In this document: in pieces, positions 717-23,226 of the stretch
Layout of the letters: each line of letters opens with the position of its first letter
Position numbering within the stretch: the first letter of the stretch is position 1
NCBI RefSeq assembly: GCF_000766945.1
Contig: NZ_ALBT01000058.1
Coordinates: 62,001 to 126,000 of the forward strand
From: Cellvibrio mixtus subsp. mixtus J3-8
Lineage (GTDB): Bacteria > Pseudomonadota > Gammaproteobacteria > Pseudomonadales > Cellvibrionaceae
DNA: 64,000 nucleotides
Reading direction: 5' to 3'
Program-made: the position numbers and the translations under genes
The notes under the pieces: model-generated
Database searches by the model: none
Seen by the model: the letters and a program-made list of their open reading frames with translations, nothing else
Told to the model about the DNA's origin: nothing

Positions 717-1241
717 TTAGAAGCTGTCGGTATTCTGGAACAGGCCGACGCGCAGGTCGTGGGCAAAATAGATGTCTTTGCCATCGCAGGAAACGCGTCC
801 GTCGGCAATACCCATGATGAGCTTGCGTTCAATGACGCGTTTTAAATTAATGTGATAGGTGATTTTCTTCGCCGTAGGCAGGATTTGGCCCGTGAATTTC
901 ACCTCGCCACAACCTAGCGCGCGACCACGACCGGGATTGCCTTTCCAGCCGAGGAAGAAGCCTACCAGCTGCCACATGGCGTCCAATCCCAAACAACCGG
1001 GCATCACCGGGTCGCCCGGGAAATGGCATTCGAAGAACCACAAGTCCGGGCTGATATCCAGTTCAGCCACGATCTCGCCCTTACCAAATTCACCGCCGGT
1101 TTGGCTGATGTGCACTACGCGATCCAGCATCAGCATGTTGGGTTTCGGTAGTTGTGCATTGCCCGGGCCAAACAATTTGCCGTCGCCACACAGGAGCAGG
1201 TCTTCGCGGCTGTAGGAGCTTTTGGGTTCAAAATTGGTCAT
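717..1241 (-). CDS. fabA: 3-hydroxydecanoyl-ACP dehydratase/isomerase FabA
   Basis: Dehydrates 3-hydroxydecanoyl-ACP and isomerises the trans-2 to the cis-3 product, the branch point to unsaturated fatty acids. It has 174 residues, the family length. The FabA core reads [20 protein letters not shown], with catalytic His73 and Asp87. The C-terminus [11 protein letters not shown] matches the family end. It is first in the fabA-fabB operon. No clear FabR or DesT operator was recognised in the 137-base upstream gap, although GCGCA-AAG-TGCGC (1292-1304) is a small perfect dyad there. If dehydration is needed in the ketosynthase cluster at 7.6-23 kb, FabA or FabZ might supply it, but nothing in the sequence shows that. 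Confidence 0.97.
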
Positions 1242-3172: not shown

Positions 3173-3517
3173 GAGGGATCCTTATGTAGGGCGCCCATGA
3201 TACGCAATCCTCCTTTATTCATGAATACATTGATGCACGCAAAAAAAATGCCTGTGCATCCTTCATGTGAGTCGCACTTTTTGGCGTTGTGAGCAACCGC
3301 GCAAATTGCATGGTTCGTGGTGAAAAGCCTTGGTTTTTTGATGCCAGGTTTGGCTGGCACGCGTTAGCCGAACGCCAAAATTTTCGTTCGCACCGTTTGT
3401 GCGAACGCTATTTATTTTTTTGCTTCCACACTAGTCCGGTTGTTTAGCTTCACCTGCTGTCGTGCAGGTGGGTATATCAATCGCTCGAATAACAATAGAC
3501 AGAGAGGCAAAATCCCC
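3173..3517. other. Intergenic region between divergent genes
   Basis: A 345-base gap between the divergently transcribed phosphopantetheinyl transferase and the di-haem protein, so it must hold promoters for both. The only strong structure is the hairpin at 3385-3407. No open reading frame with a convincing ribosome-binding site was seen. Confidence 0.5.
3385..3420 (+). terminator. Perfect 9-bp hairpin with T-rich tail
   Basis: CGTTCGCAC (3385-3393) pairs perfectly with GTGCGAACG (3399-3407) around a 5-base loop, followed by a run of T with few interruptions. It looks like an intrinsic terminator for plus-strand transcription, yet no plus-strand gene lies upstream. It may instead be a leader hairpin of the di-haem gene or a protein-binding dyad. 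Confidence 0.4.
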
Positions 3518-7595: not shown

Positions 7596-8165
7596 ATGAA
7601 AAACCCAATGACTCACGAATATTTTTTAACCGAAATCACACAAATGTTAGCGGATGTTCTCGGCCTTGAACCGGATGAAATTTCCCCTGACAGTGAAATG
7701 GTCAATGACCTGGGTGCGGAATCACTGGACTTTGTCGAGTTCAATGCAAACCTGGAAAAAAGATTTAATTTCGTGCTCCCCAAAAAAGGCGCGCTCTTGC
7801 AAGCCGGTAAAATCAGTGGCAGTCCCGAATTGTTTTACAGTTCCAAAACCGGCCTGACTAATGATGGTGTCGAGCTGTTAAAACAGTGTTTATCCCATTA
7901 CACCCATTTAAAAACCGGTGCGAGCATCAGCGATATTTTCAACTCAACGCGCGTCGTTAATATCGCCAGTTTGTGCCACAACCTCTTCAGCCAATACTTG
8001 CCTGCGTCGTGCCCGGATTGTGGCCATACCCATGCGCGCCTTTCACCGCAAGGGAAGCTGGTGTGCGAGCAATGCAGCACACCTGTGCGCCCCTTGCATG
8101 GCGATGAGGCAGAAGAGCAAGGCCTGCGTAAATACCTCGAGTTCACCTTGGCAGAGGCGGTGTAA
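7596..8165 (+). CDS. Acyl carrier protein with C-terminal zinc ribbon
   Basis: A 189-residue protein, far longer than a typical ACP (about 80). Residues about 7-75 are an ACP domain with the phosphopantetheine serine at Ser43 in GAESLDF. The middle part is unrecognised. Residues 139-160 form a four-cysteine zinc-ribbon-like element (CPDC at 139-142 and CEQC at 157-160). The start at 7596 has AAAGGA nine bases upstream. It is the first gene of the train, five bases before the first ketosynthase. It should carry the growing acyl chain for the cluster enzymes; the zinc ribbon may be a docking or protein-contact module, which is inference. Confidence 0.85.
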   Translation: MKNPMTHEYFLTEITQMLADVLGLEPDEISPDSEMVNDLGAESLDFVEFNANLEKRFNFVLPKKGALLQAGKISGSPELFYSSKTGLTNDGVELLKQCLSHYTHLKTGASISDIFNSTRVVNIASLCHNLFSQYLPASCPDCGHTHARLSPQGKLVCEQCSTPVRPLHGDEAEEQGLRKYLEFTLAEAV

Positions 8166-8170
8166 CCATC

Positions 8171-9445
8171 ATGGAACAGCGGGTGGTAGTAACAGGGATG
8201 GGACTTATTTGCGGCCAGGCAATGTCGGCTCCGGCATTGTTTGAACGCATTAAAACCTTGCAGTCATCTGTGCGCGTGCATCCGGGGTTGGCGGCTTACG
8301 GTGTTGCCAATGCGGCCTGTTCGTATGTGGATGAGGCGGTATTGGCCGGGTTAGCGGCGCGTTATGGCGCGGTTGCGTCGCGTTGCGGCCCGCCCGCATT
8401 ACTGGCGTTGCACGCGGCCGACCAGGCCGTCGCCAATGCCGGCCTGGATCTGGCGACCGTTGTGCGAAAAGGACTCTTCGCCGCGTGTAATAAGCAGTCC
8501 ATGGAAGCGGAAGATCTGCTGGTGCTGGCGCAGCACCTCGATCCCCACACCGATACTCTGAACCTGGATTTATACCTGGAACTGGAGCGCCATGATCCCT
8601 TGGCCTATTTCCACAAACGCCAGGACATGGGCGCGCTGGCGCTGGCAGAACGCTACGGTTTTGACGATGTGGTGATGACCCCCGGCGATGCCTGTGCTGC
8701 AGGTGGTATCTCCATCGGCACCGCTTATCGTTACATCGCCAGCGGTGAATTGGATGTAGCCCTCGCCGGTGCAGCGGAAACCATGTGCAACTACATGCCT
8801 ATGTTGTCATTCTCGGTATTAGGTGCGCTGGCACCACAGGGGTTAGTTAATCCCGGTGAAATCAGTCGGCCATTCGATAAGGCGCGTAGCGGTTTTGTCA
8901 TGGGGGATGGCAGCGCTTTCCTGGTGCTGGAATCCGAAGCCCATGCCCGGGCGCGCGGCGCCGTGATACTGGGTTACATCAGCGGTTTTGCCAAACAAAC
9001 CGAAGCCTGGCGGATTACCTCCAGCCCGCGCGACGGCTCCGATTACGCCCGGTGTATGCAGGCGGCAATCAGGGATGCAGGTTTGGCACTGGACGATATC
9101 GACCATATCAACGCCCACGGCACTTCCACCGAACAGAACGACAGTTGTGAAAGCCTGGCGATTAAAAAACTGTTTGCAGAGCGTACCGCGAAGATCCCGG
9201 TCACCTCGAATAAATCGGCCATTGGTCATTCGCTGGCGGCGAGCGGCGCGATAGAAGCGGCCATGTCGATCTTGTCACTGCAACACCAATTGCTGTTGCC
9301 AACATTAAATTACCAGGAACCGGATGATGACACGGCGGACATCCAGGTGGTGCGGCAAGCAACACCGGCGCCGCTTCGCCATGTGCTATCCAATTCCTTC
9401 GGTTTTGGTGGAGAGAATTCAGCGCTGGTGCTCAGTGCTGCCTGA
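8171..9445 (+). CDS. Beta-ketoacyl-ACP synthase, catalytically complete (KS1)
   Basis: FabF-like condensing enzyme of 424 residues that would catalyse decarboxylative chain extension on the cluster ACP. The full triad is present: Cys175 in GDACAAGG, His316 in NAHGTST and His353 in SAIGHSLAASG. The C-terminal SFGFGGENS is typical. It starts five bases after the ACP stop. The following gene is a ketosynthase-like protein without the triad, so the two probably form a KS/chain-length-factor heterodimer as in type II polyketide synthases. Chain length and starter cannot be read from the sequence. Confidence 0.9.
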   Translation: MEQRVVVTGMGLICGQAMSAPALFERIKTLQSSVRVHPGLAAYGVANAACSYVDEAVLAGLAARYGAVASRCGPPALLALHAADQAVANAGLDLATVVRKGLFAACNKQSMEAEDLLVLAQHLDPHTDTLNLDLYLELERHDPLAYFHKRQDMGALALAERYGFDDVVMTPGDACAAGGISIGTAYRYIASGELDVALAGAAETMCNYMPMLSFSVLGALAPQGLVNPGEISRPFDKARSGFVMGDGSAFLVLESEAHARARGAVILGYISGFAKQTEAWRITSSPRDGSDYARCMQAAIRDAGLALDDIDHINAHGTSTEQNDSCESLAIKKLFAERTAKIPVTSNKSAIGHSLAASGAIEAAMSILSLQHQLLLPTLNYQEPDDDTADIQVVRQATPAPLRHVLSNSFGFGGENSALVLSAA

Positions 9446-9533
9446 CCGGGTGGTGCCTGAATAGTGCCACCTGACGTTTATCAATAAGCCATGAACCATA
9501 AGGATCATGCAGTCGTAAAAAGGAAGATTGAAC

Positions 9534-10688
9534 GTGAAAGTATTTATTGAACCGGGCGCTGTGGTTTGTGCAGCGGCTACACGGGTGGATTTGCTCTGGC
9601 AATCCCTGGTGGATGGCACCGTTCCCAAAGAGCCTTTGCCTTGTCCCGCCTACGATACCTGGCCCTGGCCGGAGGTATACGCCACACCGGAACCGGGTGC
9701 ACTGGAACTGGGGGTGGACCGCAAAGTCCTGCGCACGATGGAAAAGCAGGCCAAGCTGGCGCTTTATGGCGCTTGCCTGTCGGCGGATGCCCGTGCGAGT
9801 TTGCAGGACAAGCATATTAGTCCGGCGCGGCGTGGGCTCTACCTCGCCATCCCTACGGTGGATGAATCAGTGCCGCCGTGGACCTTGCTGGAAACCTTGC
9901 ATGAAGAATCCGCACAACCGGCGCAACCCGCCGAGCTGAATTCCACCGAATTCCTGCTGCGCGAAATTCCCGCGTTCTTCGGGCTATCCACGCTTAACAG
10001 CAATACCTGTGCGCACATTTCTGCCCGCTTTGGGTTGATGGGTGCGATGGGGGCGTATTCGCCCTTTGCCGATGCGGCGTTCCAGGCATTGATCGATGCG
10101 GTGGAGTCTATCCGCAATGGCGAAAACCACTTGGCATTGGTCGGTGCAGTCAGCCCCAAGATCAACCCGCAATTGCTGGTGCAATACAACTATTGGGGAT
10201 GGGACCAAAAAGCCACCCGTATTCCCGCCGAGGCATCGGCCTTTGCCGTGGTCGGTGCGCAACCCCGGGCGACCAGTGTGAGCGGTTTCGCGCGCGGTTT
10301 TATTGCGGACCCGGCCCAGGCGATCAGTCAGCGTGCCGCCCTGTTGCAACAGGCATTGGGCAACGCGGGGTTAACGGTTAGCGATCTGGACTGGTTTATC
10401 GCCGGCGAAGATGACCTGGTGGAAAGCGCTGCCCTGGTATTGGCGGGCGCCTGCGCATCATTACCGTTTTTATTCAGCGAAGCATTTCTGGGTTACGCCG
10501 GTGCCGCCAACCCACTGCTAAACCTCAACCTGGCGCTGGCGGGTGTGCAACAGCAAATGCTGCTGGAAGGCGATTCGCGCCAGCCGCTGCAATGCTATTC
10601 GCGCAGCTTGCGCCATGTTGCCCTCAGTGCCGCTGGCCCTGAAGGCCAATATATCGTCGTCATTATCTCCAGGGAGGAAGCACTATGA
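9534..10688 (+). CDS. Ketosynthase-like protein lacking catalytic residues (chain-length-factor-like 1)
   Basis: A 384-residue thiolase-fold protein. The GTG start at 9534 is preferred over TTG at 9528 because AGGAAG lies seven bases upstream of it. The nucleophile region reads GAMGAYSPFADAAFQAL, with no cysteine at the active position. There is no HGT motif (WFIAGEDD instead) and the second histidine motif is LGYAGAAN (GH changed to GY). It overlaps the next gene by four bases (ATGA). By analogy with KS-beta subunits it should pair with KS1 and influence chain length; it cannot condense by itself in the normal way. Confidence 0.8.
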   Translation: MKVFIEPGAVVCAAATRVDLLWQSLVDGTVPKEPLPCPAYDTWPWPEVYATPEPGALELGVDRKVLRTMEKQAKLALYGACLSADARASLQDKHISPARRGLYLAIPTVDESVPPWTLLETLHEESAQPAQPAELNSTEFLLREIPAFFGLSTLNSNTCAHISARFGLMGAMGAYSPFADAAFQALIDAVESIRNGENHLALVGAVSPKINPQLLVQYNYWGWDQKATRIPAEASAFAVVGAQPRATSVSGFARGFIADPAQAISQRAALLQQALGNAGLTVSDLDWFIAGEDDLVESAALVLAGACASLPFLFSEAFLGYAGAANPLLNLNLALAGVQQQMLLEGDSRQPLQCYSRSLRHVALSAAGPEGQYIVVIISREEAL

Positions 10689-11971
10689 GCCAGCGTGTTG
10701 TAGTCACCGGTTTGGGTGTGGTTGGTCGCCTGGGTTTCCATTGGCGCGATTTCTGGAAGGCATTGCTCGCCGGCGAATCGGCAGTCGTACCCTGGCAACC
10801 GGGAGCGATTAGCGATTTCCCGGTGCGCTACGCCGCACCTGTTGACGATGCCGCATTTACCGCCGCATTTGCCGGCCTGGTTGAATCCCTGCCGCCCATG
10901 GAACGCCGCAGCCGCTTCGGTGCTATGGCTGCCTATGCCGCCATGCACGATGCCGGTCTGATTGATAAAGACCTGAGGCTGGGCGTCGCCGTAGGCTCCG
11001 GTATTCCCGAGCGCGATACGGCCGATATGCTGCTGGCGATGACCGATGCCGGCCCGAGCTGGGACGCATTCTATGCGCGCCGTGCGCAACTCAACCCCGC
11101 CTTGCGTGGCGGCAACGACCAACTGGCTGCGGTCATTGCGCGTCAGTTCAAGGCGCGTGGCCCGGTCCAAAACTTCAGTACTGCCTGTGCCGGTGCAGCC
11201 CACGCCATCGGTAGCAGCTTCCGCATGATCCGCAACGGCGAGATCAATTGCATGATCGCCGGCGGCGCCGATTCAGTGCTCAGCCCTATGACCATCACCG
11301 GTTTGCATTTGCTCGGCGCGCCTTCCGTGAATGAAGACCTGGGCGATAAACTCTGCCGTCCCTTCGATGAAGCCCGCTCCGGGTTTATCGCCGCTGAAGG
11401 CGGTGCCTTTGTGGTACTGGAAAGCCTGGACCATGCCCGTACACGCAATGCCACTATTTACGGTGAGGTGCTCGGCTTTGGCAGTTCGATGGATGCCTAC
11501 CGCGTTACTGCACCACATCCGGAGGGAAGGGGGGCCGCGCAATCCATGGAGAATGCCCTGCGCGATGCAGGTATTGCTCCGGGCGATATCGACTATATCA
11601 ATGCTCACGGCACATCTACACCCTTAAATGATCCTGCCGAGACAATGGCTATCAAACACGTATTTGCAGCGGGTGACCACTATCGCAAGCTCGCGGTTAG
11701 TGCGACCAAATCCCAGATTGGCCATTGGATTGCAGCCGCCGGGGCGCCGGAGTTTATTGCGACGTTGCTGGCCGCGCGCGACGGCATTGCGCCACCCACG
11801 CTCAACCTGGAAAACCCGGACCCCGCTTGCGACCTGGACTATGTTCCGCTACAGGCGCGCCCCATGAAAATCGGTGCGGCCTTATCCAACTCGTTCGGTT
11901 TTGGCGGGCTCAATGCATCGTTAATCGTTAAGCCCTACATCAAGGAGGATGCCCATGAATACCATGGATAA
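10685..11971 (+). CDS. Beta-ketoacyl-ACP synthase, catalytically complete (KS2)
   Basis: FabF-like condensing enzyme of 428 residues. The triad is intact: Cys168 in STACAGAAHAIG, His308 in NAHGTST and His347 in SQIGHWIAAAG. It is translationally coupled to the preceding KS-like gene (ATGA overlap) and overlaps the next gene by 17 bases. It differs clearly from KS1, so this is not a recent tandem duplication. It is most likely the active partner of the following triad-less protein, giving a second KS/chain-length-factor pair. Confidence 0.9.
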   Translation: MSQRVVVTGLGVVGRLGFHWRDFWKALLAGESAVVPWQPGAISDFPVRYAAPVDDAAFTAAFAGLVESLPPMERRSRFGAMAAYAAMHDAGLIDKDLRLGVAVGSGIPERDTADMLLAMTDAGPSWDAFYARRAQLNPALRGGNDQLAAVIARQFKARGPVQNFSTACAGAAHAIGSSFRMIRNGEINCMIAGGADSVLSPMTITGLHLLGAPSVNEDLGDKLCRPFDEARSGFIAAEGGAFVVLESLDHARTRNATIYGEVLGFGSSMDAYRVTAPHPEGRGAAQSMENALRDAGIAPGDIDYINAHGTSTPLNDPAETMAIKHVFAAGDHYRKLAVSATKSQIGHWIAAAGAPEFIATLLAARDGIAPPTLNLENPDPACDLDYVPLQARPMKIGAALSNSFGFGGLNASLIVKPYIKEDAHEYHG

Positions 11972-13238
11972 TTGCACCAGTGTTGTCATCACTGGCGCGG
12001 GTTGCCTGCTGCCGGGTTGCGATAGCCCGGCAGAGCTCTGGCAGCGCGCGCTGGAACAACGTTGCGCCACCGTTCCCTATGCGGATGACATGGTGCGCAG
12101 CGAACTGATCACCCGCTTCGGCCATATCAACACGCAGCAAAGCGCTGCGGCATTGGACGCGGTACCGTTCAAGCTGCGCCGCTACGCCACAGCGGCATCG
12201 CAATGGGGCATCAAAGCCACCAAAGATGCGCTGGTATCCGCCAACCTTGAACTGGCCAGCGTTGACGCTGAACGGGTTGGTGTATTCACCGCCCAGGCCG
12301 ACTATTGTTACCCCGCCGTACAATCGTTTATGACCGGGATTCGCCAGCAATACGAACAAGGCGAGCTGGATATTCCCGGCCTGACCCATGAATTCCTCAA
12401 TGCGCGGGGCATGGATTCATTCCTGTCGATTAAAGGCTTGTCCAACAATATGCTCGCCATCGCCAGCCTGGCGTTTGGTTCGCGTGGCGATTGCGGTGCC
12501 TATGTGCAAAACGCCAGCGCCACCCTGGCGGCATTGCGGAGCGCCATGATCAGCCTCAAACGTGGCGATAGCGACGTGGCATTGGTGATTTTTACCGGCA
12601 GCTACAACGAAGCCCTTACTCTGGCTGAACTCTTCCAGGCGCAACAACTTACTTCGGCCGGTGCGAGCAACGAATTCCGGCCGTTCGATCAAGCGCGCGA
12701 TGGCGGTATTGCCGGCGAAGGCGCTATCGCATTTGTACTGGAAACCGCCGCCCGTGCCCGGGCGCGTTCGGCCCCGGTGCTGGCAACTATCGACGGCATC
12801 AGCAACACCACCCGCTTCGAGCGCGATCCCTCGGCCTATCGCCGTTGCACAGATCGTTTATTGCAAAGTATTGGCCTCGATCTGGATTCGGTGGATGCCA
12901 TAGTCGCGCGCGGTCTGGGCAGCAAGGATGATGATGAGCAGGAGATCCAGCAGTTGGAACACCTGCTGGTCGACGGTCAGGCAATTCCGGTGACCTGCGC
13001 CTCTCCGATTACCGGTTTGGTACCGGCGTGCCCGGTGGATTTACTGCTGGCGCTGCAAATGCTGCAGCACCAGCAAATCCCGGCGATTGCGAACCTCACC
13101 CGCCCGGCGTCAACACGGGTGCCCTGGGTTTATCGCCAACCGCACACCAAAGCCATTGCGCGCGTGCTCAGCCTGGGCCGCTGTTACAGCGGTTTCCATT
13201 CGGCTGTTTCCCTCTCCCTGCCGTCCTTTATCGGGTAA
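11955..13238 (+). CDS. Ketosynthase-like protein lacking catalytic residues (chain-length-factor-like 2)
   Basis: A 427-residue thiolase-fold protein. The start at 11955 sits six bases after AAGGAGG (11942-11948); the in-frame ATG at 11949 is too close. At the nucleophile position it reads QNASATLAALRSAM with no cysteine. The HGT region is VARGLGSKDDDEQE and the GH region SPITGLVPACP, so both histidines are lost. It keeps the KS scaffold (ARDGGIAGEGAIAFVLE). It overlaps KS2 and is followed after five bases by the fusion enzyme. Predicted role: beta subunit of the KS2 pair. Confidence 0.8.
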   Translation: MNTMDNCTSVVITGAGCLLPGCDSPAELWQRALEQRCATVPYADDMVRSELITRFGHINTQQSAAALDAVPFKLRRYATAASQWGIKATKDALVSANLELASVDAERVGVFTAQADYCYPAVQSFMTGIRQQYEQGELDIPGLTHEFLNARGMDSFLSIKGLSNNMLAIASLAFGSRGDCGAYVQNASATLAALRSAMISLKRGDSDVALVIFTGSYNEALTLAELFQAQQLTSAGASNEFRPFDQARDGGIAGEGAIAFVLETAARARARSAPVLATIDGISNTTRFERDPSAYRRCTDRLLQSIGLDLDSVDAIVARGLGSKDDDEQEIQQLEHLLVDGQAIPVTCASPITGLVPACPVDLLLALQMLQHQQIPAIANLTRPASTRVPWVYRQPHTKAIARVLSLGRCYSGFHSAVSLSLPSFIG

Positions 13239-13243
13239 TTGCC

Positions 13244-16180
13244 ATGACCATTTATCAAACACCGCATTCGCAACAACCGTTGCCGCAAAAATCGCTCTAT
13301 CAAACGTTTGTGAAAACCCATTTAGCCAACTTGATGAACACTTTAGGCCTGGATATCCATTACACCCGGGCCCAAGGCGACTATTTATTTTATCGCGATG
13401 CACAAAACGTCGAAGTGCCGGTGCTGGATTTACTCGGCGGTTACGGCTCGCTGATTTTTGGCCATAATCATCCGCAGATTATTGCCGAAACCAAGCGCTT
13501 GCTCGACGCACAAGTGCCGGTGCATGCGCAATTTTCCTTGCGCGAAGGTTCAGGTGAGCTCGCGCGCAAATTGAATCAGGTTATGCAACGCGAACTGCAA
13601 AACGATGACGAGTTTGCGGTGACTTTCGCCAACAGTGGTGCCGAAGCCATTGAGGTGGCGATCAAGCACGCTGAATTGGAACGCGTACTCAAGCTGCAAG
13701 ATTTGCTCGACGAGGTCACCCTCAATATTGAAACTGTGCAGCGCGCCATTCGCGTTGGCGATGCCAAAATTCCGGAAAATATTTATCGCCACACATCGAT
13801 TCGCGAATACGTATTTGATGTGCGCAATTTTGAAGAATTAATTGTTGGCCTGGTCAATCACAACGCCACGCAATTAGTGAAACGCCCGATTTTCCTGGTG
13901 CTGGAAAAATCCTTCCACGGTAAATTAATTGGCAGTGTGCAATTAACCTACAACAAAAATTTCAGAAGGCCATTCCAGTATTTTGGTTTGAATACACGTT
14001 TTATTTCCCCGCGCGATCCGGAGCAGTTGGACCGGGTAATCAAGGAGGAACGTGTCGTTATTTTTGATCTGGCGATTGACAACGGCCAGGTGGCTATTGT
14101 TGAACGCGAACTGCCTATTTTCAGCGCATTTATTGTAGAACCGATTCAAGGCGAAGGTGGCGTAAATGTATTGGAAGCCGAATTTGCCCGGCGCGTACGC
14201 CGTGTGTGCAACCAATTGGACTGCCCGTTAATTATCGATGAAATCCAATCGGGCATGGGGCGCAGCGGCAGTTTCCTGGCTAGCACCCAAATTCCTTTAA
14301 AAGGCGATTACTACACCTTCTCCAAATCCCTCGGTGGTGGTATTGCCAAAGTGTCTGCAACCCTGATCAGAAAAAGCCGCTTGCGCAAAGAATTTAGTCT
14401 GGTGCACAGCTCCACCTTTGCAGAGGACGATCTCTCCTCCGGTATTGCATTAAAAGTATTGGCGATGCTGGATGATCCGGACTTGGGCGCCTACGAAAAA
14501 ATCCGCACCAGTAGCGCAGCATTGCGCGCTGCACTGGAACGCGTACAACAAAAATTCCCGCAAGTCATTCGCGATGTGCGCGGTATCGGTCTGTTTTTGG
14601 GCGTAGAATTTTTCGAACAAAAAAATGCCAGCTCGATTTTGTTTCGTGGTAGCAGCTACAACGATTCGTTCGGTTATTTGCTCGCGGGCTACCTGTTGCA
14701 CGAAGAGCGTATTCGTATTGCGCCACCGGGCAGCGCACCGAATGTATTACGCCTGGAACCATCGTTATTTTTAACCGATGCACAAATTGAGCATATCGAG
14801 CAGGCATTCACCCGTTTATGCCAAATTGTTGCTGCGCAAGATTCGTTGCACCTGGCATTTCCATTGACCGGTTCTGCACGTCAAAAACCGCGCGCCACCA
14901 TAGAAAATTTCCAGCAGGATTTCACCGCCAGTGTGACTACCCCGGCAGGCATGAACCTGACGCGCCCGGTGCGCAAAGTCGCGTTCATTAATCACCTGAT
15001 TACCCCGGAATTGCTCGCAGAAGTTGATCCATCATTGCAAGCACTCAGCAGCGACGAGTTGCGTCAATTTGTAGAACGCATGGAGCCCAACAAAAAGACG
15101 GCACCATTCCCGCCTGTGCGCATTCATTCGCCCCTCGGTGTAGCGGTGGATTTTTATTTATATCCACTCTGCGTAAGCTCGCATCAAATGGCGCGTTATT
15201 TAAGTGAAGGCAACCTGGATATTATTCGCGATGATATTAAAGATCGCATTAAAGCCGCGCAGACCGAGGGTTGTGAAATTGCCGGCCTGGGGATGTACAC
15301 CTCCATCGTTACCAACAATTGTACCTCCCTCAAAATTCCGGATATGGCACTTACTTCCGGCAATGCATTAACCATCGGCATGGCGCTGGAAGCGATCAAA
15401 CAAGCAGTGCCACGGCAATCATTAAAAATTAGTGATATGACGGTTGTAGTGGTCGGCGCTGCGGGCAATATTGCCTCCACCTATGCGTCGTTACTGAGCG
15501 AGAAAACCACGCACCTGATTTTGCTTGGCAGTGAGCGCAGCGGATCAATCAACCGTTTGCAACAAACGGCATACAGCATTTATGAAGATACCTGGCAGGA
15601 AATTATCAGCACTCCTCGCCATCAGTGGGGCGCCCTGGCAAAAGAATTAATTGCCGAAGCGTTTGTGCAGGAATGGTTTGAAAATAAAAATGCACCGGAA
15701 AAAAATATCGGTAAAACCATCGCCGCGAAATTGGTGGAGCACCATGGACAAGATCCTTTTATCACGGTATCAACCGATCTCAATCTAATTAAGCAAGGCC
15801 ACATTGTGTTGTGCTCCGCCAATGCTGCTGAAGCGTTTTTAGGTGCGGAGGATTTCCGGGAGAACGCGATCGTGTGCGATATCGCGGTGCCCAATAATGT
15901 GCGCGCCGATATTGTCTCTACACGCCCCGATGTGATTTACCAACAAGGTGGTGTAGTGGCGACACCCAATGGTGAAAGCTTGCATCCAACCGCGCGCGCG
16001 TTCCTCAAATCCGGGCAATTATTTGCGTGTATGGCGGAAACGGCAGTGCTTGGTTTGTCCGGTATTAATCGCCACTATTCGCACGGTGCTATTTCCAAAC
16101 AACAAGTACGCGAAATTCTCACGCTCGCCAAAGCGCACGGATTTTCGTTGGCAAGTTATAAAACCGGTAATTCGCTTTAA
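13244..16180 (+). CDS. Fusion of class III aminotransferase and acyl-ACP reductase-like domain
   Basis: A 978-residue two-domain enzyme. Residues about 20-535 are a class III PLP aminotransferase: FANSGAEAIEVA at 128-139, FIVEPIQGEGG, IIDEIQSGMGRSG with Asp332, and FSKSLGGG with PLP lysine 361. Residues about 575-978 resemble the long-chain acyl-ACP reductase (AAR) family: GLGMYTSIV at 681-689, a Rossmann motif VVVVGAAGNIAS at 734-745, and a late FACMAETAV stretch like the AAR FACFAE motif. AAR enzymes reduce acyl-ACP to aldehyde and class III aminotransferases can convert aldehydes to amines. The fusion would release the chain as an amine. That product is inference. The start at 13244 is five bases after the previous stop. 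Confidence 0.82.
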   Translation: MTIYQTPHSQQPLPQKSLYQTFVKTHLANLMNTLGLDIHYTRAQGDYLFYRDAQNVEVPVLDLLGGYGSLIFGHNHPQIIAETKRLLDAQVPVHAQFSLREGSGELARKLNQVMQRELQNDDEFAVTFANSGAEAIEVAIKHAELERVLKLQDLLDEVTLNIETVQRAIRVGDAKIPENIYRHTSIREYVFDVRNFEELIVGLVNHNATQLVKRPIFLVLEKSFHGKLIGSVQLTYNKNFRRPFQYFGLNTRFISPRDPEQLDRVIKEERVVIFDLAIDNGQVAIVERELPIFSAFIVEPIQGEGGVNVLEAEFARRVRRVCNQLDCPLIIDEIQSGMGRSGSFLASTQIPLKGDYYTFSKSLGGGIAKVSATLIRKSRLRKEFSLVHSSTFAEDDLSSGIALKVLAMLDDPDLGAYEKIRTSSAALRAALERVQQKFPQVIRDVRGIGLFLGVEFFEQKNASSILFRGSSYNDSFGYLLAGYLLHEERIRIAPPGSAPNVLRLEPSLFLTDAQIEHIEQAFTRLCQIVAAQDSLHLAFPLTGSARQKPRATIENFQQDFTASVTTPAGMNLTRPVRKVAFINHLITPELLAEVDPSLQALSSDELRQFVERMEPNKKTAPFPPVRIHSPLGVAVDFYLYPLCVSSHQMARYLSEGNLDIIRDDIKDRIKAAQTEGCEIAGLGMYTSIVTNNCTSLKIPDMALTSGNALTIGMALEAIKQAVPRQSLKISDMTVVVVGAAGNIASTYASLLSEKTTHLILLGSERSGSINRLQQTAYSIYEDTWQEIISTPRHQWGALAKELIAEAFVQEWFENKNAPEKNIGKTIAAKLVEHHGQDPFITVSTDLNLIKQGHIVLCSANAAEAFLGAEDFRENAIVCDIAVPNNVRADIVSTRPDVIYQQGGVVATPNGESLHPTARAFLKSGQLFACMAETAVLGLSGINRHYSHGAISKQQVREILTLAKAHGFSLASYKTGNSL

Positions 16181-16333
16181 TTCGAATACGACGCAAAAGT
16201 AAACGCCACTTTTTTTAACAACAAGTGATGTAGTGTGAATGTAAATTGGCTGGCTGATGTAAAAAATTTCAGTAAGCATCATGCAGTAGATACGATGTAG
16301 TAAACACCACGTAGTAAACAAAAGGAATTCAGT
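16181..16333 (+). other. Intra-operon gap with 10-bp direct repeats
   Basis: A 153-base gap inside the train, the longest in it. GTAGTAAACA occurs twice at 16297-16306 and 16311-16320 (period 14), just before the ribosome-binding site of the next gene. It may hold an internal promoter or a binding site. Confidence 0.4.
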
Positions 16334-17098
16334 ATGAAGGCTATCCGTAATAATGATTTAAATGAGCAAATCGCTTTGGTAACCGGTGCGAGCCGTGGTA
16401 TCGGTCGCGCTATCGCCGTGCAACTCGCACAGCAAGGTTGTCATGTGGTAATTAATTATCGCAACGACGAAGCCGGTGCAGCGCAAACCGCGGCTGCAAT
16501 CAGCGAATTGGGCCGCGAGGCATTATTAGTTCCCGCTGATGTTTCCAGCTACGCCGCGTGTGAAAATATGGTGGCTGCCGCGTTGGATAAATTTGGCCGC
16601 CTGGATGTATTGGTCAACAACGCCGGTATCACGCGCGATAATTTATTAGTCAGCCTGGAGCCGGAGGATATTCTATCCGTCATCAATACTAATTTGCTCG
16701 GCGTGATTTATCCCACCAAGGCCGTTGCCATGCAAATGATGCGTCAACGCTACGGGCGCATCGTCAATCTTTCTTCATCCGCTGCCTCCAAACCCGGCAA
16801 AGGGCAAAGCAATTACGCCGCTGCAAAAGGTGGTGTGGAAGCATTTACCAAGGCCATGGCGGTGGAATTGGCGCCGCGCAATATTTTGGTTAATGCAGTT
16901 GCACCCGGTGTGATAGTGACGGAAATGTCTGAACAAATTCGCGAATTGGGTGAAGAGGAAATTAAAGCGCGTTTGTTATTAAAACGTTATGCCGAAGCCG
17001 ATGAAGTTGCAGACCTGGTGTGCTGGCTTGCCAGCCCCGCTAACCAATACATGACCGGAGAGGTATTGCACCTCGACGGCGGTTTAAAAATGGCGTAA
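16334..17098 (+). CDS. SDR-family 3-oxoacyl-ACP reductase, FabG-like
   Basis: A 254-residue short-chain dehydrogenase of FabG type that would reduce the beta-keto group after each condensation, using NADPH. The cofactor motif TGASRGIGRA is at 17-26, VNNAG at 94-98 and the catalytic Ser148-Tyr161-Lys165 set in NLSSSAASK...NYAAAKGG. AAAGGA lies eight bases before the start. Overlap with the next gene (TAATG) indicates co-translation. A dedicated ketoreductase fits a reducing type II polyketide or fatty-acid-like pathway. Confidence 0.87.
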   Translation: MKAIRNNDLNEQIALVTGASRGIGRAIAVQLAQQGCHVVINYRNDEAGAAQTAAAISELGREALLVPADVSSYAACENMVAAALDKFGRLDVLVNNAGITRDNLLVSLEPEDILSVINTNLLGVIYPTKAVAMQMMRQRYGRIVNLSSSAASKPGKGQSNYAAAKGGVEAFTKAMAVELAPRNILVNAVAPGVIVTEMSEQIRELGEEEIKARLLLKRYAEADEVADLVCWLASPANQYMTGEVLHLDGGLKMA

Positions 17099-17880
17099 TG
17101 ATTATGAACTTTCAAACAAAAAACGCATTGATTACCGGCGCCGCCACTGGAATAGGCGCCGCCACTGCCAAACAATTTTGCCAGGAACAGATAGGCACAT
17201 TGATATTGCTGGATATCGCCGAACCTTTACTGCGGCAATTTGCAAAAGAATTGCGTGAAGCTTATCCACATACTTACATCATTACTTGCGTTGCCGATAT
17301 TTCCAATCAACAGAAATTGCATGAATCGCTCAAACCATTGCTGCAACAAGTGGAGCATATAGACATTCTGGTCAACAGCGCTGGTGTCGGTGATGAAAAC
17401 GAACCGGAAGAAAGTCAAATCTGGCACAAGGTACTCGGCATAAATTTGCACGGCACTTATTACACCAGCATTGAAGTGCTCGCGTTTATGCCTAATGGTG
17501 GGCGCATTATTAATGTGTCTTCTATTTTAGGGCGCGCAGGCAATGTGCGTAACACAGCCTATTGTACCTCCAAGCATGGGATACTGGGTTTCACCAAAAG
17601 CCTCGCGCTGGATTTGGCGCCGCGCAAAATTACCGTGAACGCAGTGTTACCCGGTTGGGTGGATACACCGATGTTGCGCCGCGAAATTGCATTGAATGCA
17701 GAAAAAATTGGCGCAGATCCGGAACAAATGTTGCGCACTGCCAAAAAGAAAATTCCTCTGAAACGCCTCACGCCCAGTGATGATGTAGCCAACCTGATTG
17801 CGTTTATCGCTTCCGCCGGTGCGGGCAGCATCACGGCGCAAAGTTTTACTATCGATGGTGGCTTCACATGCGGCGTTTAA
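17098..17880 (+). CDS. SDR-family oxidoreductase
   Basis: A 260-residue short-chain dehydrogenase. TGAATGIGAA is at 13-22, VNSAG (a variant of NNAG) around 92-96, and the catalytic Ser142, Tyr155 and Lys159 lie in NVSSILGR...AYCTSKHG. It may start at 17098 or, equally plausible, at ATG 17104; neither has a strong ribosome-binding site. It overlaps the DUF1302 gene by 13 bases. The substrate is unknown. In this context it could be a second ketoreductase or act on the released aldehyde or amine intermediate. Confidence 0.8.
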   Translation: MIMNFQTKNALITGAATGIGAATAKQFCQEQIGTLILLDIAEPLLRQFAKELREAYPHTYIITCVADISNQQKLHESLKPLLQQVEHIDILVNSAGVGDENEPEESQIWHKVLGINLHGTYYTSIEVLAFMPNGGRIINVSSILGRAGNVRNTAYCTSKHGILGFTKSLALDLAPRKITVNAVLPGWVDTPMLRREIALNAEKIGADPEQMLRTAKKKIPLKRLTPSDDVANLIAFIASAGAGSITAQSFTIDGGFTCGV

Positions 17881-19145
17881 TCCAATTCACATCGCTAGCG
17901 CTATTTACCAATGCTTGTGAATTGCAAGCATTGGAAGTGAGCGGCAATGCAGCGTTAAACCTTGCTGCGCACACTGCCGGTGCGGAACCGGATTTGAGTG
18001 AACAAGGCGGTCAACTTGTAGTGAAATTTACTGAAGACCGCGACGCATTTTCGTTGGTCGGCGAAGGCCGTGCGCGCTGGAATCATGCGTATGCAAATGA
18101 TTACAGCGAAGCGGCGCGCGACGATTACGAATGGAGCGCTGACTGGCGCGAACTGTATATCGCCAAAGATGTTAACCAATGGAATATCAGCCTTGGCATG
18201 CAACAGGTGGTGTGGGGCAAGGCAGACAACCTGCGTGTGCTGGACCAGGTTAACCCGCTCGATTACCGCGATTTTGTGTTGCCGGATTTAAATGATTACC
18301 GCAAACCGTTATGGATGGCCAAAGGTGAAGGTTATGTGGGCGATTGGTCGGTGCAAACATTTTATATTCCCTGGTTTGAACCTAACGATCAGGCGACACC
18401 TGGCAGTGAGTATGAATTTATTGCGATAGATCCTGAGCTCTTGCAAAGTTTCACATTGTTGCCAGAAAAAAAACCGGCACACACCGTTGATAATGGTGAA
18501 GCCGGTGTGCAAATCGCACGCAGTTTTTCCGGGCTGGATATAAATTTTTCCATCTTCCATACCTGGGATGACAACCCGGTGTATCGCCAGCAATATGCGA
18601 TTGATGCCAGCGGTGAATTCATTGCTGAATTGCAACCGGAATATCACCGTCAATTGCATTTAGGTGTAGCGGCTGCATATTCATTAGCGAACGGTTTTGT
18701 ATTGCGCACAGAGTGGCTGGTTATTCCCGACAGTGTTTATATGTTGAATGTAGCAGACATTAACGGCGGATTAATTGAAGAAACCACGGTGAATGCATTG
18801 CTCGGTCTGGATTATTCCTGGCGCGACTGGTTGTTCTCGATGCAAGCCAATGATCGTTATATCGATAACTGGACCAATGAATTTGCCAGCGCAGAACATC
18901 AACCCCTGGTTACCTTTTCCGCTACCGGGCAAAGTTTTTCCGGCCGTCTGGAATCGCGTATTGCAATTGCGCGTTTTACCGACGAGTCCAATGATCAATT
19001 ATTGCAAATTCGCACCAGCTGGCGGCCAGACGATTATTGGGCCTACACACTGGGCGCGGATTATTTTAGCGGGCCAGCACAAGGCACCTTCGGCCAGTTT
19101 GCGCATAAAGATCGCGTATGGATAAAAGTGCAACGTTATTTTTAA
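17868..19145 (+). CDS. DUF1302-like outer-membrane protein
   Basis: A 425-residue exported protein with an N-terminal hydrophobic signal region (first ~22 residues). Aromatic-rich alternating segments and the passage MQQVVWGKADNLRVLDQVNPLDYRDF resemble the DUF1302 family, predicted outer-membrane beta-barrels often found with RND/MMPL exporters. The end KVQRYF, with terminal phenylalanine, fits a beta-barrel insertion signal. It starts inside the preceding gene. Likely role: outer-membrane component for the product of this cluster; inference from position before the LolA-like and RND genes. Confidence 0.72.
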   Translation: MRRLIQFTSLALFTNACELQALEVSGNAALNLAAHTAGAEPDLSEQGGQLVVKFTEDRDAFSLVGEGRARWNHAYANDYSEAARDDYEWSADWRELYIAKDVNQWNISLGMQQVVWGKADNLRVLDQVNPLDYRDFVLPDLNDYRKPLWMAKGEGYVGDWSVQTFYIPWFEPNDQATPGSEYEFIAIDPELLQSFTLLPEKKPAHTVDNGEAGVQIARSFSGLDINFSIFHTWDDNPVYRQQYAIDASGEFIAELQPEYHRQLHLGVAAAYSLANGFVLRTEWLVIPDSVYMLNVADINGGLIEETTVNALLGLDYSWRDWLFSMQANDRYIDNWTNEFASAEHQPLVTFSATGQSFSGRLESRIAIARFTDESNDQLLQIRTSWRPDDYWAYTLGADYFSGPAQGTFGQFAHKDRVWIKVQRYF

Positions 19146-19185
19146 TTTTTTTAATAGTTATTATGGATTTTACAAGGAGCTTGTC

Positions 19186-20004
19186 ATGAAATTTTTATCC
19201 ATTGCGGCAGCAGGCATTAGCCTGTGCTTCATGTCCGCCACACAAGTGGCCGCCGTGACTGCCGATGATATTCTCTCCCAGGTGCGCAACCGCCCCGATG
19301 GTGTAGATACATTTGCCAATGCCAGTTTGGTATTGATAGAAAAAAATGGCAGCAAGCGCGTACGCGATTTGTTGTTCCTGCAAAAAGATTACGGCAAGGA
19401 CGACAAGCTCACCCTGAGCTTTACCACGCCTGCGGATGTGAAAGGCGTGGTATTGCAAAGCATTAACTACGATGAATCGGTGCAAAAAGAAGATGATCAA
19501 TGGATGTATCTGCCAGCGTTCCGCCAGATCCGTCGCATTGCCGCAACAGACAAACGCGGTTCTTTTATGGGTAGCCAATTTTCCTACATCGACCTGGATA
19601 AATTGCGTGTGACGGATTATCGCCAGACATTGGTGCGCGAAGAAAAAATCAATGAGCGCGATTGCTATGTAATTGAGCGCATACCATCGTCGCTGGAAGT
19701 GGTGAATCGCACCGGTTATCACAAGGTAAATGTATGGGTGGACAAGGATTCATCGGTGGTGGTGAAGCAAGTGTATTTCGATGCAAAGGGAATTCCGTTC
19801 AAAGAATTCTTTGCAAAAAAATTGGAACAAGTGCAAAACATCTGGACCGTTACCCACAGCGAAATGCGCGATCTGGTCAATGGCCGCACGTCGGAATTAA
19901 TTTTCAGCGGGGTGCGTTATGACGTAGGGCTGGATGACAGTTTGTTTCAACACAATATTATGAAAACAGGAGTGAAAAATGGAAACTTACCTCAAGTTCG
20001 TTGA
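19186..20004 (+). CDS. LolA-like periplasmic outer-membrane lipoprotein-sorting protein
   Basis: A 272-residue protein with a Sec signal peptide (first ~23 residues) and a fold of the LolA_like (outer-membrane lipoprotein-sorting) type, seen in DQWMYLPAFRQIRRIAATDKRGSF-like sequence around residues 105-130. AAGGAG is six bases upstream of the start. It overlaps the exporter gene by 26 bases. LolA-like proteins of this type travel with MMPL/RND exporters and are thought to carry lipophilic molecules across the periplasm. Here it would take the product from the exporter to the outer membrane. Confidence 0.75.
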   Translation: MKFLSIAAAGISLCFMSATQVAAVTADDILSQVRNRPDGVDTFANASLVLIEKNGSKRVRDLLFLQKDYGKDDKLTLSFTTPADVKGVVLQSINYDESVQKEDDQWMYLPAFRQIRRIAATDKRGSFMGSQFSYIDLDKLRVTDYRQTLVREEKINERDCYVIERIPSSLEVVNRTGYHKVNVWVDKDSSVVVKQVYFDAKGIPFKEFFAKKLEQVQNIWTVTHSEMRDLVNGRTSELIFSGVRYDVGLDDSLFQHNIMKTGVKNGNLPQVR

Positions 20005-22606
20005 TCGTTGGTCGCGTGCGATTATTTTCGTACTCTTTTCGATCACCCTGTTTTTTGCATTGCAGTTGGGCAATTTGACCAATGACAGCAATCCTTATCT
20101 ATTGCCGGAAAACCATCCAGCGCGCAAATCCATTCTGGATATGCAGCAGGAATTCAGCGGCACTTTTGATGCAGCGATGGTGGTTGTACATAACAAACAG
20201 GATATTTTTAATCGCACTACATTGGATGCGGTTTATGAACTGACCACTGAATTTCGCAAATTAATGTTAGCCACCGACGCCGATGCGCAATACTTGCAAC
20301 AGCTGGCTGATAAGTACAGTGCGCAGGTGCCGGAGTTTCGCACACTGAGTGAATCCATTGTGCGCGATGGATTGGCTCAAAGTGATTTTTTTGCGGCGGA
20401 TGAATTGCTGCAAAAAACCAGGCATCTTTCACTGACCCATACCGAAGCTGCATTCCTTGCGTATTTGCCGCGCCGCTTGAACCCGATCAAGGAAATGGCA
20501 GGCCTGGCAGCATCGGATAACATTATCACTGAAGATGGTACGCTAAAAATATTCAAAAGCCTGCACGATAAGGAAGTGCCTGCCGAGCAAATCAAACGCG
20601 AGGTAATGGGCAATGAATTGATGGTAAACAGCGTGTTCTCGGCAGATAACAAATCCACCATGATTACTGTGGAATTATTTGTAAAGCAGGATGACGCCGA
20701 TGGGCAGGTGCGTGCTTATGAAGCAATCAAACAATTAATTGAGGATTACCGCGCGCGCCATCCGGAGTTTACCGATGAAGTTTATATTGCCGGTGTGCCC
20801 ATTTTTATCGCTGAGCAAAAAAAATTAACAGATGCCGATCTGGGCACGCTGTTACCGGTTGTACTGTTAATTGTGGGTACAATCCTGGTGGTATTTTTCC
20901 GTCGCCCCATGGGGTTTTTGTTGCCGATGCTCAACGTCATTATGTGCACCATCTGGACGCTGGGGATGATGAGTTTGATGCGCGAGCCGATGGATTTGGT
21001 AACCAGTGCCTTGCCGGTATTTTTAATTACCATTTGCGGTGCTGACGCTATCCACATGATGAACGAATATTACACGCACCATAATTCCGGTTTGCCGCCG
21101 CGCGAAGCGGTTAAAAAATCCTTGCGTGCCATGTTTTCGCCGATCGTCCTTACCACTGTCACCACAGTTGCGGGATTTCTATTTTCCACCTCGACCAATA
21201 TTTCCAGTATTCAATCGTTTGGCATTTATATGGCGGTTGGTTTGGTGACGGCGCAAATTATTTCGCTGCTATTAATCCCTGCCTGGTTGAACTTAACCAA
21301 AGGCCAGCGCCAACCCGATGCGCAAAAAGAATCCGGACGTGAATACCTGGGTGAAGCATTGGCAACATTCTTCGGTGCGATGATTCGTCGCCGCCGTTTA
21401 TCACTCGTCGTATTTGCAGTAGTGATGCTGGGCTGCGGTGCAATGGCCACGCGTATTGTGGTGGAGGACGCAGGTTCGGATTATTTTGCGGCGGATAATA
21501 AATTCCGTATTTCTGATGAGTTTGTTAATTCTCATATTGCCGGGACCAGTCCAGGCTGGGTGGAAATAAAAGGCGTTGGGCCCAATGCTATTTTGAATGT
21601 CGACACCGTTGCCTTTATCGATAAACTGGATAAATTTTTATTAACCCAGCAAAACGTAACTTATACCTATTCCATCGCCACTTACATTAAACGTATGAAC
21701 CTGGCGTTGCACGATATGGACCCGGCATTCAATCGTTTGCCGAATAAAATCGAACAAGTCAGTTCAATTGATCCTGACACCAACCAAACCATTGTTGAGG
21801 AAATCAGTGGCGATGAAGTGGTATCACAATTGGTGCTGCTTTACGAAAATGGCGGCGGCAGTGATCTGAACAACGTGCTCACACGCGATTTTTCCAAAGC
21901 GGCAGTGTTATTTACGATGAATACCACACGGGCAACTGAATATCAGGTATTGCTGGATAATCTGAATGCATGGATCGCGGCGAACAAACCTGCCAATGTG
22001 GAACTGCAAGTGGCTGGGACTCCTGTGATCTGGACCGGTGTGTTGCACGAGATTATTAAAGGCCAATTTACCAGTTTTGTGTTGGCATTCAGTTCCATCT
22101 GCCTGGTATTGATGTTGTGGTTGCGCTCTGCGCGTTTGGGTTTGCTGACTGCGTTGCCGCTCGCGGCAACCATGGTCAGTTATTACGGCATAATGGCGGC
22201 GTTGGGAATTGAATTGAATATTGGCACTGCTCTGATTTCATTTATAGTGGTCGGTATTGTGGACTATTCCGTTCACTACTTGCATCGTGTGAAAGAACAT
22301 TTCGCCAGCTCTGACAGTATTGATGAATCACTGCTGTATGCCATTCGCCATTCAGGCTCATCGATTGTTTTTAACGTTGCGCTGTTTTCGTTGGGTTTCC
22401 TCACATTATTATTTTCACAATTTACGCCGATTGCGCATCTTGGTGGGCTGGTGGCATTAGCATTGACAATCAGCGGTTTTATGTCGATCTTCCTGATCTC
22501 GATGCTGGCACCCTGGTTTATGCGCAAGGAGCCGCAAGCAGAAAATAGTGAGGCAATTGAAAACCCTCTTTTCATAAAAGCAGCAAAAACAAGTGAGTAT
22601 TCATGA
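19979..22606 (+). CDS. RND-superfamily (MMPL-type) exporter
   Basis: An 875-residue inner-membrane protein with two repeats, each of one transmembrane helix, a large periplasmic domain, and five more helices. Helices are seen near residues 14-32, 290-440 (five), about 462-480 and 685-850. The motif GIVDYSVHYLHR carries the aspartate expected in the proton-relay helix of this family. AGGAGTG lies just upstream of the start, within the LolA-like gene. It is a single-component lipid or hydrophobic-compound exporter like those in aryl polyene and hopanoid loci, driven by proton motive force. It is followed by an ATGA overlap. Confidence 0.85.
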   Translation: METYLKFVDRWSRAIIFVLFSITLFFALQLGNLTNDSNPYLLPENHPARKSILDMQQEFSGTFDAAMVVVHNKQDIFNRTTLDAVYELTTEFRKLMLATDADAQYLQQLADKYSAQVPEFRTLSESIVRDGLAQSDFFAADELLQKTRHLSLTHTEAAFLAYLPRRLNPIKEMAGLAASDNIITEDGTLKIFKSLHDKEVPAEQIKREVMGNELMVNSVFSADNKSTMITVELFVKQDDADGQVRAYEAIKQLIEDYRARHPEFTDEVYIAGVPIFIAEQKKLTDADLGTLLPVVLLIVGTILVVFFRRPMGFLLPMLNVIMCTIWTLGMMSLMREPMDLVTSALPVFLITICGADAIHMMNEYYTHHNSGLPPREAVKKSLRAMFSPIVLTTVTTVAGFLFSTSTNISSIQSFGIYMAVGLVTAQIISLLLIPAWLNLTKGQRQPDAQKESGREYLGEALATFFGAMIRRRRLSLVVFAVVMLGCGAMATRIVVEDAGSDYFAADNKFRISDEFVNSHIAGTSPGWVEIKGVGPNAILNVDTVAFIDKLDKFLLTQQNVTYTYSIATYIKRMNLALHDMDPAFNRLPNKIEQVSSIDPDTNQTIVEEISGDEVVSQLVLLYENGGGSDLNNVLTRDFSKAAVLFTMNTTRATEYQVLLDNLNAWIAANKPANVELQVAGTPVIWTGVLHEIIKGQFTSFVLAFSSICLVLMLWLRSARLGLLTALPLAATMVSYYGIMAALGIELNIGTALISFIVVGIVDYSVHYLHRVKEHFASSDSIDESLLYAIRHSGSSIVFNVALFSLGFLTLLFSQFTPIAHLGGLVALALTISGFMSIFLISMLAPWFMRKEPQAENSEAIENPLFIKAAKTSEYS

Positions 22607-23181
22607 CTAAAAATATTGTGGTGATTCTCGGGCATCCCGATTCCAACAGCTATTGCGGTTCATTGGCCGAATCCTATACGCAAACGGCGCGAGCAAACGG
22701 CCACAACGTAAAGTTATTCAAATTGGGTGACGCGAATTTTGATCCCGTTTTACACCACGGTTATAACCAGCGGCAGGAACTGGAACCTGACCTGGTGGAA
22801 ATGCGCGAGGCCATTTTATGGGCTTCGCACATTGTGTTTGTTTATCCCATTTGGTGGGGTTCCATTCCCGCTTTGTTGAAAGGTTTTTTTGATCGGACAT
22901 TCTTGCCCGGTTTTGCGTTTCGCTACCGCGAGAATTCTGTGTGGTGGGATAGGTTGCTTGCAGGGAGAAGTGCGCATTTGATTGTGACTATGGATACACC
23001 GCCCTGGTATTACCGCTGGATTTATAAAATGCCGGGGCACAATCAAATGAAAATTACCATTCTCGAATGGTGTGGTATCAAGCCCGTCAAAATCAGTGCG
23101 TTTGGCCCGGTGCGCAATTCAACCGACCAACAACGCGAAAAATGGCGGCAAGCGGTAATTAAATACGCCGGGCGTATTTAG
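22603..23181 (+). CDS. Flavodoxin-fold NAD(P)H oxidoreductase
   Basis: A 192-residue protein of the MdaB/KefF/NQO1-like family of FMN or FAD quinone reductases. The N-terminal VILGHPDSNSYCGSLAES and YPIWWGSIPALLKGFFDR are the flavin- and nucleotide-binding signatures. It overlaps the exporter gene by four bases, so it is part of the same train. Its substrate is unknown. It may reduce a quinone or unsaturated product of the cluster, or protect against redox stress. Confidence 0.8.
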   Translation: MTKNIVVILGHPDSNSYCGSLAESYTQTARANGHNVKLFKLGDANFDPVLHHGYNQRQELEPDLVEMREAILWASHIVFVYPIWWGSIPALLKGFFDRTFLPGFAFRYRENSVWWDRLLAGRSAHLIVTMDTPPWYYRWIYKMPGHNQMKITILEWCGIKPVKISAFGPVRNSTDQQREKWRQAVIKYAGRI

Positions 23182-23226
23182 GATTTTTCACTCAATCATT
23201 AAATGAATCCAAGGCAGGGTTTAATC

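Follow-up and report, generated by a model that had tools for sequence, protein, structure and literature searches.

We analyzed a 64,000-nucleotide stretch of the Cellvibrio mixtus subsp. mixtus J3-8 genome (contig NZ_ALBT01000058.1; the whole stretch is hereafter called the window), in which positions 7596-23181 hold twelve consecutive genes, all on the plus strand, that encode polyketide-type chain-building enzymes, a transaminase-reductase fusion, and a set of export proteins. Genes were assigned from open reading frames (ORFs) and from Pfam and NCBIfam scans of the window proteins, each scan covering ten of the twelve operon proteins and the two between them all twelve. In the following list, Kec names refer to the koreenceine (kec) cluster of Pseudomonas koreensis, and Pseudomonas-family copies are those from the loci introduced in the next section.

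7596-8165, plus strand: acyl carrier protein (ACP), KecA-like, 189 aa (PF00550, E 2e-10, PP-binding domain at residues 13-62)
8171-9445, plus strand: first ketosynthase (KS1), KecB-like, active type (PF00109/PF02801; Cys-His-His)
9528-10688, plus strand: first chain-length factor (CLF1), KecC-like, an inactive ketosynthase homologue with a TTG start (PF00109, 28.4 bits; without the catalytic Cys)
10685-11971, plus strand: second ketosynthase (KS2), KecD-like, active type (PF00109/PF02801; Cys-His-His)
11949-13238, plus strand: second chain-length factor (CLF2), KecE-like, an inactive ketosynthase homologue (PF00109, 73.1 bits; without the catalytic Cys)
13244-16180, plus strand: fusion of a class III transaminase and an assigned acyl-ACP (thioester) reductase, KecF-like (PF00202; motifs; tree)
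16334-17098, plus strand: ketoreductase (KR), a FabG-type beta-ketoacyl-ACP reductase, KecG-like (best PDB match 9NG1)
17098-17880, plus strand: second short-chain dehydrogenase/reductase (SDR2), KecH-like (PF13561; 48-53% identity to 16 Pseudomonas-family copies)
17868-19145, plus strand: outer-membrane beta-barrel-like protein, KecI-like (strand-rich model; 29-31% identity to Pseudomonas-family copies)
19186-20004, plus strand: LolA-like periplasmic protein, KecJ-like (PF17131, E 3.6e-54)
19979-22606, plus strand: MMPL/RND-family transporter, KecK-like (TIGR00921 and other MMPL-family models, all below their cut-offs; 46-48% identity to Pseudomonas-family copies)
22603-23181, plus strand: flavodoxin-fold NAD(P)H oxidoreductase (NF007280, 70.9 bits, below the cut-off of 162)

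Six of the eleven junctions overlap, two leave gaps of 5 bp, and the rest leave 40, 82, and 153 bp, and all eleven core reading frames (7596-22606) are intact. The fusion length of 978 aa is counted from the first ATG of a longer frame. The protein at 17868-19145 had no Pfam match, and its weakly predicted structure (mean pLDDT 57) is rich in strands. Scans of the twelve operon proteins found no acyltransferase, dehydratase, thioesterase, or CoA ligase. The gene set, the tight junctions, and these absences all agree with an earlier note on this DNA, made from its letters, which went on to propose a new class of reducing type II polyketide/fatty-amine pathway.

Kinship with the koreenceine clusters

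The earlier note knew of no described cluster of this make-up and stated that its proposal would be overturned by an already described cluster that shares the gene set and has a known product. A literature search found one in kecA-kecK of P. koreensis, and the new class was rejected (PMC6498172). As listed in that paper, the cluster encodes an ACP, a KS, a CLF, a second KS and CLF, and an aminotransferase-acyl-ACP reductase fusion, followed by two reductases, two membrane proteins, and a drug-transporter homologue, and this list equals window positions 7596-22606 gene for gene and in the same order. Deletion of the cluster is described there as abolishing koreenceines A-D, of which A-C are tetrahydropyridine-type alkaloids and D is N-(4-chlorobutyl)-3-hydroxydecanamide, all with C14 formulas. 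A kec-type cluster is also reported from P. putida KT2440 (PP_2777-PP_2787; PMC10829540, PMC12490732), where the ACP, four KS-family genes, the transaminase fusion, and the reductases lie in one 14.7-kb cluster as they do in the window, and the transaminase of PP_2782 was assayed in vitro (PMC10829540).

Published surveys place this family mostly in one genus. The koreenceine cluster of P. koreensis CI12 is MIBiG BGC0001987, as cited in PMC11888242, which gives the cluster family 664 members from five genera, 99.39% of them Pseudomonas, and Table 1 of PMC10829540 sorts 230 comparable clusters by lineage, with one from Cellvibrio and three from Photobacterium. In the literature on koreenceine (also with Cellvibrio, Photobacterium, and Vibrio), covered mostly by papers outside subscription, PMC10829540 was the only source for a Cellvibrio kec cluster among the matches listed, and a term search of the text available for a type II polyketide synthase (PKS) catalogue (PMC10132072) did not find aminotransferase, koreenceine, or alkaloid.

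Genome searches extended this kinship. A fusion profile (E <= 1e-60) matched 10 of 148 genomes of genome family f20, six of them strongly (>1000 bits), and 24 of 199 genomes from a large genus within that family, fifteen of them strongly; all six strong-match loci from the former search and 10 of the 15 from the latter were fetched, and all 16 keep the eleven-gene order intact. We infer that f20, here called the Pseudomonas family, holds Pseudomonas because two of its loci (L132 and L135) have KRs 96% identical to P. putida 9NG1, which is PpFabG4, i.e., PP_2783 of the koreenceine-matching cluster in KT2440 (PMC12490732). The window KR, too, has this entry as its best PDB match (E 5e-73, 54% identity). 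On a Photobacterium sp. DA100 plasmid (L093), all eleven genes are likewise arranged in the kec order, and CLF2 is shorter there (295 versus 429 aa). A 12-base replication motif of Vibrio failed to pick out Vibrionaceae in the genome sample. Core proteins of the window are 25-55% identical to the 16 Pseudomonas-family copies, with KS2 highest (53-55%) and the fusion at 44-46%, and since gene order is kept at such identities in the Pseudomonas family and Photobacterium, an operon assembled by chance is implausible. Within the window's genus, the fusion occurs at about 80% identity or more in 3 of 21 genomes, the window's own included, one of which (G002) has it in two pieces (83% and 79% identical); the closest records found were the metagenome-assembled Cellvibrio sp. 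UBA7671 and UBA8526, whose fusions are 82-84% identical.

In a 33-row tree of fusion proteins, 19 kec-type fusions form one clade (100/100) apart from 14 others, and Cellvibrio, Photobacterium, and the Pseudomonas family are separate branches within it, both groupings carrying a long-branch warning. One Cellvibrio locus (L010) was left out of the tree, its frame being broken in a draft genome, and the row for L057 is one of two pieces. The earlier note had suggested checking whether the fusion co-occurs with KS/CLF pairs: it does in all 16 strong Pseudomonas-family loci and on the Photobacterium plasmid, and no KS/CLF genes were found around the 14 other fusions in the tree. Nor were any found in five f20 loci with weaker fusion or PigE-like matches (L069, L070, L117, L118, and L119); of the nine weaker matches in the large genus, one (G466) was inspected. 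A reductase-domain search matched seven genomes each, the window's own included, among 369 of the class and 398 of the phylum, with no KS/CLF or ACP genes around the matches at the other loci inspected (6/6 for the class and 4/6 for the phylum). A CLF1 profile of the Cellvibrio copies, a weak one for identities of 25-28%, found no further full-length copy in 293 genomes of the order, and the fusion profile had no match in 25 genomes of one Pseudomonas-family genus.

Catalytic residues and comparison with other systems

Residues were tallied by alignment over 20 clusters, i.e., the window, two Cellvibrio, one Photobacterium, and 16 Pseudomonas-family clusters. The Cys-His-His set is kept in KS1 and KS2 of every cluster (20/20 each), while a Cys at the catalytic column occurs in no CLF1 and no CLF2 (0/20 each), the exact CLF column being uncertain because these proteins are strongly diverged. 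Within the fusion, the pyridoxal phosphate (PLP) lysine motif and the GAAGN nucleotide motif are present in 20/20 clusters and ACMAE in 19/20; the exception is L010, with its broken fusion frame. The transaminase half has CrmG as its nearest PDB entry (5dds, E 7.6e-124). The C-terminal half has no confident Pfam domain; its assignment as an acyl-ACP (thioester) reductase draws on TamH/KecF-type kinship and on its motifs, which stand in for a family model, and the ACMAE cysteine probably corresponds to the reductase cysteine of TamH and of cyanobacterial acyl-ACP reductase as described in PMC9594044.

The ACP carries a C-terminal extension with two CxxC pairs, both present in 18/20 clusters, the others being that of Photobacterium, where they are lacking, and L010, where the protein is truncated by the contig end. 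An unusual predicted structure was also remarked on for the KT2440 ACP (PMC12490732). The AlphaFold model of the window ACP (mean pLDDT 84) had no PDB match at E < 0.001 (best E 0.07, mostly ACPs over about 50-120 columns). The CxxC tail may bind metal.

Aryl polyene and flexirubin clusters share with the window the KS/CLF pairing, a FabG-type reductase, and export by LolA-like and MMPL proteins. Aryl polyene clusters also carry a dehydratase, a starter ligase, and an ammonia lyase, none of which appeared in the scans of the twelve operon proteins. The window KR scored 241.6 bits against the FlxB model NF053542 (cut-off 340) and, unlike aryl polyene and flexirubin clusters, the operon would release an amine or imine through its fusion enzyme. 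That fusion resembles TamH of the tambjamine pathway in Pseudoalteromonas tunicata in having an N-terminal class III transaminase and a C-terminal acyl-ACP reductase, with an acyl-ACP as substrate, but TamH is supplied by the adenylating ligase-ACP TamA, whereas KS/CLF pairs would supply the window's fusion (PMC9594044); scans of the twelve operon proteins found no TamA-like adenylating ligase-ACP. The transaminase domain is closely related to CrmG and to the transaminases of Streptomyces type I PKS alkaloids (coelimycin-type), of which copies on Streptomyces plasmids reach up to 47% identity over 53% of the query among the matches listed, but these CrmG-type Streptomyces proteins are shorter, comprising the transaminase half only, and a type I PKS adjoins in Streptomyces sp. 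RerS4. The prodigiosin PigE model NF053554 gave 308 bits against a cut-off of 850, with its best stretch in the transaminase half, and the domain order of PigE is given as opposite to that of the window's fusion (PMC10829540).

Proposed pathway and alternative explanations

Taken together, these results make it highly probable that the operon belongs to the koreenceine family as its Cellvibrio representative and would work, by analogy with kec, toward a cyclic imine. The path proposed for kec joins a C10 starter with two malonyl units into a triketide, followed by reduction, release as an aldehyde, transamination, and spontaneous ring closure (PMC6498172), and while genes, gene order, catalytic residues, and kinship are read from the sequences, every reaction, substrate, chain length, and export route in our scheme is modeled on kec. 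The ACP would take a medium-chain acyl starter out of fatty acid synthesis, KS1/CLF1 and KS2/CLF2 would extend the chain with malonyl units, probably two, and the last beta-keto group would be reduced by the two SDRs, with fatty acid synthesis lending the enzymes for dehydration and enoyl reduction. In the fusion, the C-terminal domain would then turn the thioester into an aldehyde and the N-terminal domain the aldehyde into an amine. Ring closure between this amine and the ketone left in the chain would form a tetrahydropyridine (cyclic imine), which may exit via the MMPL pump, the LolA-like carrier, and the outer-membrane protein. The logic put forward in the earlier note (two KS/CLF pairs on a dedicated ACP, reductive release, amination, and export) coincides with the path already proposed for koreenceine, for which the window keeps the catalytic residues, and is largely right; its standing as a new class is not supported. 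Because of the analogy with kec, the product is most likely a koreenceine-like cyclic imine, i.e., a tetrahydropyridine alkaloid, rather than the linear fatty amine that note had in mind.

Several observations weigh against membership in the koreenceine family or against a koreenceine-like product. CLF1, CLF2, and the ACP share only 25-28%, 30-34%, and 34-39% identity, respectively, with the Pseudomonas-family copies, so the starter or the chain length may differ, and the 25-55% range of the core as a whole means that chain length and tailoring may differ. Neither a dehydratase nor an enoyl reductase is encoded in the operon or named in the published kec list; a FabA-domain gene 6.4 kb upstream or housekeeping enzymes could serve. 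The published kecA-K has no flavodoxin-fold reductase, whereas the Cellvibrio operon has one inside, and the cytochrome-like neighbor of the Cellvibrio operon (below) is also absent from kecA-K. One Pseudomonas-family locus of the 16 (L132) has a stop within its CLF2 gene, shown as X in the per-protein alignments and the 20-cluster tally with the bases left unaltered. Finally, the tie to the named kec cluster was drawn through PP_2783 and the published gene list. It is possible, though less likely than not, that the diverged CLFs set another chain length and the in-operon flavodoxin-fold reductase makes a piperidine (coniine-type), in which case the product would differ from koreenceine.

Should full reduction or a lack of dehydration remove the ketone that the ring needs, the amine would be exported unchanged, as a linear fatty amine or an amino-polyol. 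TamH, which has the same domain order, yields a linear C12 amine from acyl-ACP together with TamA (PMC9594044), and the operon encodes two SDRs and no dehydratase; we nevertheless regard a linear product as unlikely, since the match to kec spans the whole operon and cyclic imines are described as the main kec products (PMC6498172). LolA-like and MMPL genes also stand beside other transaminase-reductase fusions that lack KS/CLF genes (L054, L055, and L099), and with such proteins an amine-bearing lipid might be placed into the outer membrane, as part of the envelope and not as a secreted antibiotic. This is less probable again, given that koreenceines were recovered from culture extracts and inhibit Bacteroidetes (PMC6498172) and that no glycosyl- or acyltransferase appeared in scans of the cluster proteins. 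Least probable of all, and by our estimate very improbable, is a cluster that is silent or decayed in the window's strain: its presence in only three of the 21 genomes of the genus does mark it as dispensable, but all eleven core frames are open and the catalytic residues examined are kept.

Neighboring genes, other fusions, and the koreenceine family

Around the predicted koreenceine-family operon lie the following genes.

Window edge to 572, minus strand: ketosynthase, upstream of the operon
717-1241, minus strand: FabA-domain gene, upstream of the operon
2435-3172, minus strand: 4'-phosphopantetheinyl transferase, a divergent neighbor (PF01648)
23203-25905, plus strand: beta-propeller and di-haem cytochrome-like protein, 900 aa (PF10282, 39.2 bits; CCP_MauG below its cut-off)

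Within the operon, the flavodoxin-fold reductase gene overlaps the pump gene by 4 bp. A homologue adjoins the cluster in 13 of the 16 fetched Pseudomonas-family loci, and the stretch from Photobacterium showed none; the gene is common in its own right, matching 76 of 119 genomes of the large Pseudomonas-family genus (E <= 1e-45). Thirteen genomes with a strong kec fusion also match the reductase, which lies about 7 kb from the fusion in eleven and on another contig in one; in the last genome the fusion is at the end of its contig, which makes the distance undecidable. Such a placement would suit a functional partner or else a shared insertion site. The propeller/cytochrome-like gene, a Cellvibrio-only neighbor, also follows the reductase in Cellvibrio locus L010 (84% identity); none of the other fetched cluster stretches showed it, and its membership in the operon is doubtful. 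The phosphopantetheinyl transferase, found near the cluster in L058 as well (on a contig shared with L009), may activate the operon's ACP. Window positions 3440-6106 encode a di-haem oxidoreductase (PF06537) whose N terminus carries an F5/8 type C (galactose-binding-like) domain. Elsewhere in this genome, open frames of 5361, 5726, and 3115 codons bear KS domains (C1:274938-275684, C1:832072-846159, and C20:5220-5969), and the great length of these frames suggests that it probably has further large polyketide pathways.

Transaminase-reductase fusions were also seen in other settings. On Rhodobacterales plasmids, the fusion has as its direct neighbor a small VPLPA-CTERM protein, i.e., an exosortase substrate (L096 10511-11245, L098 12739-13455, and L138 10764-11456), a pairing present in all three Rhodobacterales records with a query cover of at least 96% among the matches listed, and two Rhodobacterales records with lower query cover (L099 and L100) have the fusion in other surroundings. 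One may speculate that a fusion-made lipid amine is the nucleophile for exosortase sorting; no literature joining VPLPA-CTERM and aminotransferase was found among the matches listed. Fusion, LolA-like, and MMPL genes occur together without KS/CLF genes in L054 (3706-13710), L055 (5483-15408), and L099 (6633-14041), and in L054 and L055 two flanking ORFs resemble acyl-activating ligases by eye, pointing to an amine pathway fed by a ligase and served by an exporter of the same type. Another genome of the window's genus (G018) has a different fusion (L056, 9370-17724), 25% identical to the window's and with KS/CLF genes absent nearby, together with an MMPL pump that shares 29% identity with the window pump. 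At L053 (4758-12916) and L057 (7423-12903), the fusion, which spans two ORFs in L057, lies beside long ORFs that resemble phosphoenolpyruvate (PEP)-synthase N-terminal domains by eye.

For the earlier proposal, the main value of these results is negative, in that the operon is not a new class and is a distant relative of a described cluster; it is a real, complete-looking pathway with a product predicted by analogy. The flavodoxin-fold reductase, as a twelfth gene, is a likely partner of the kec pathway. Comparison across lineages singles out as essential parts the eleven-gene core, the catalytic residues, and, except in Photobacterium, the cysteine-bearing ACP tail. Koreenceine-type pathways thus span at least three deep lineages (the Pseudomonas family, Cellvibrio, and Photobacterium) with their gene order unbroken, which points to an old, possibly mobile antibiotic pathway.

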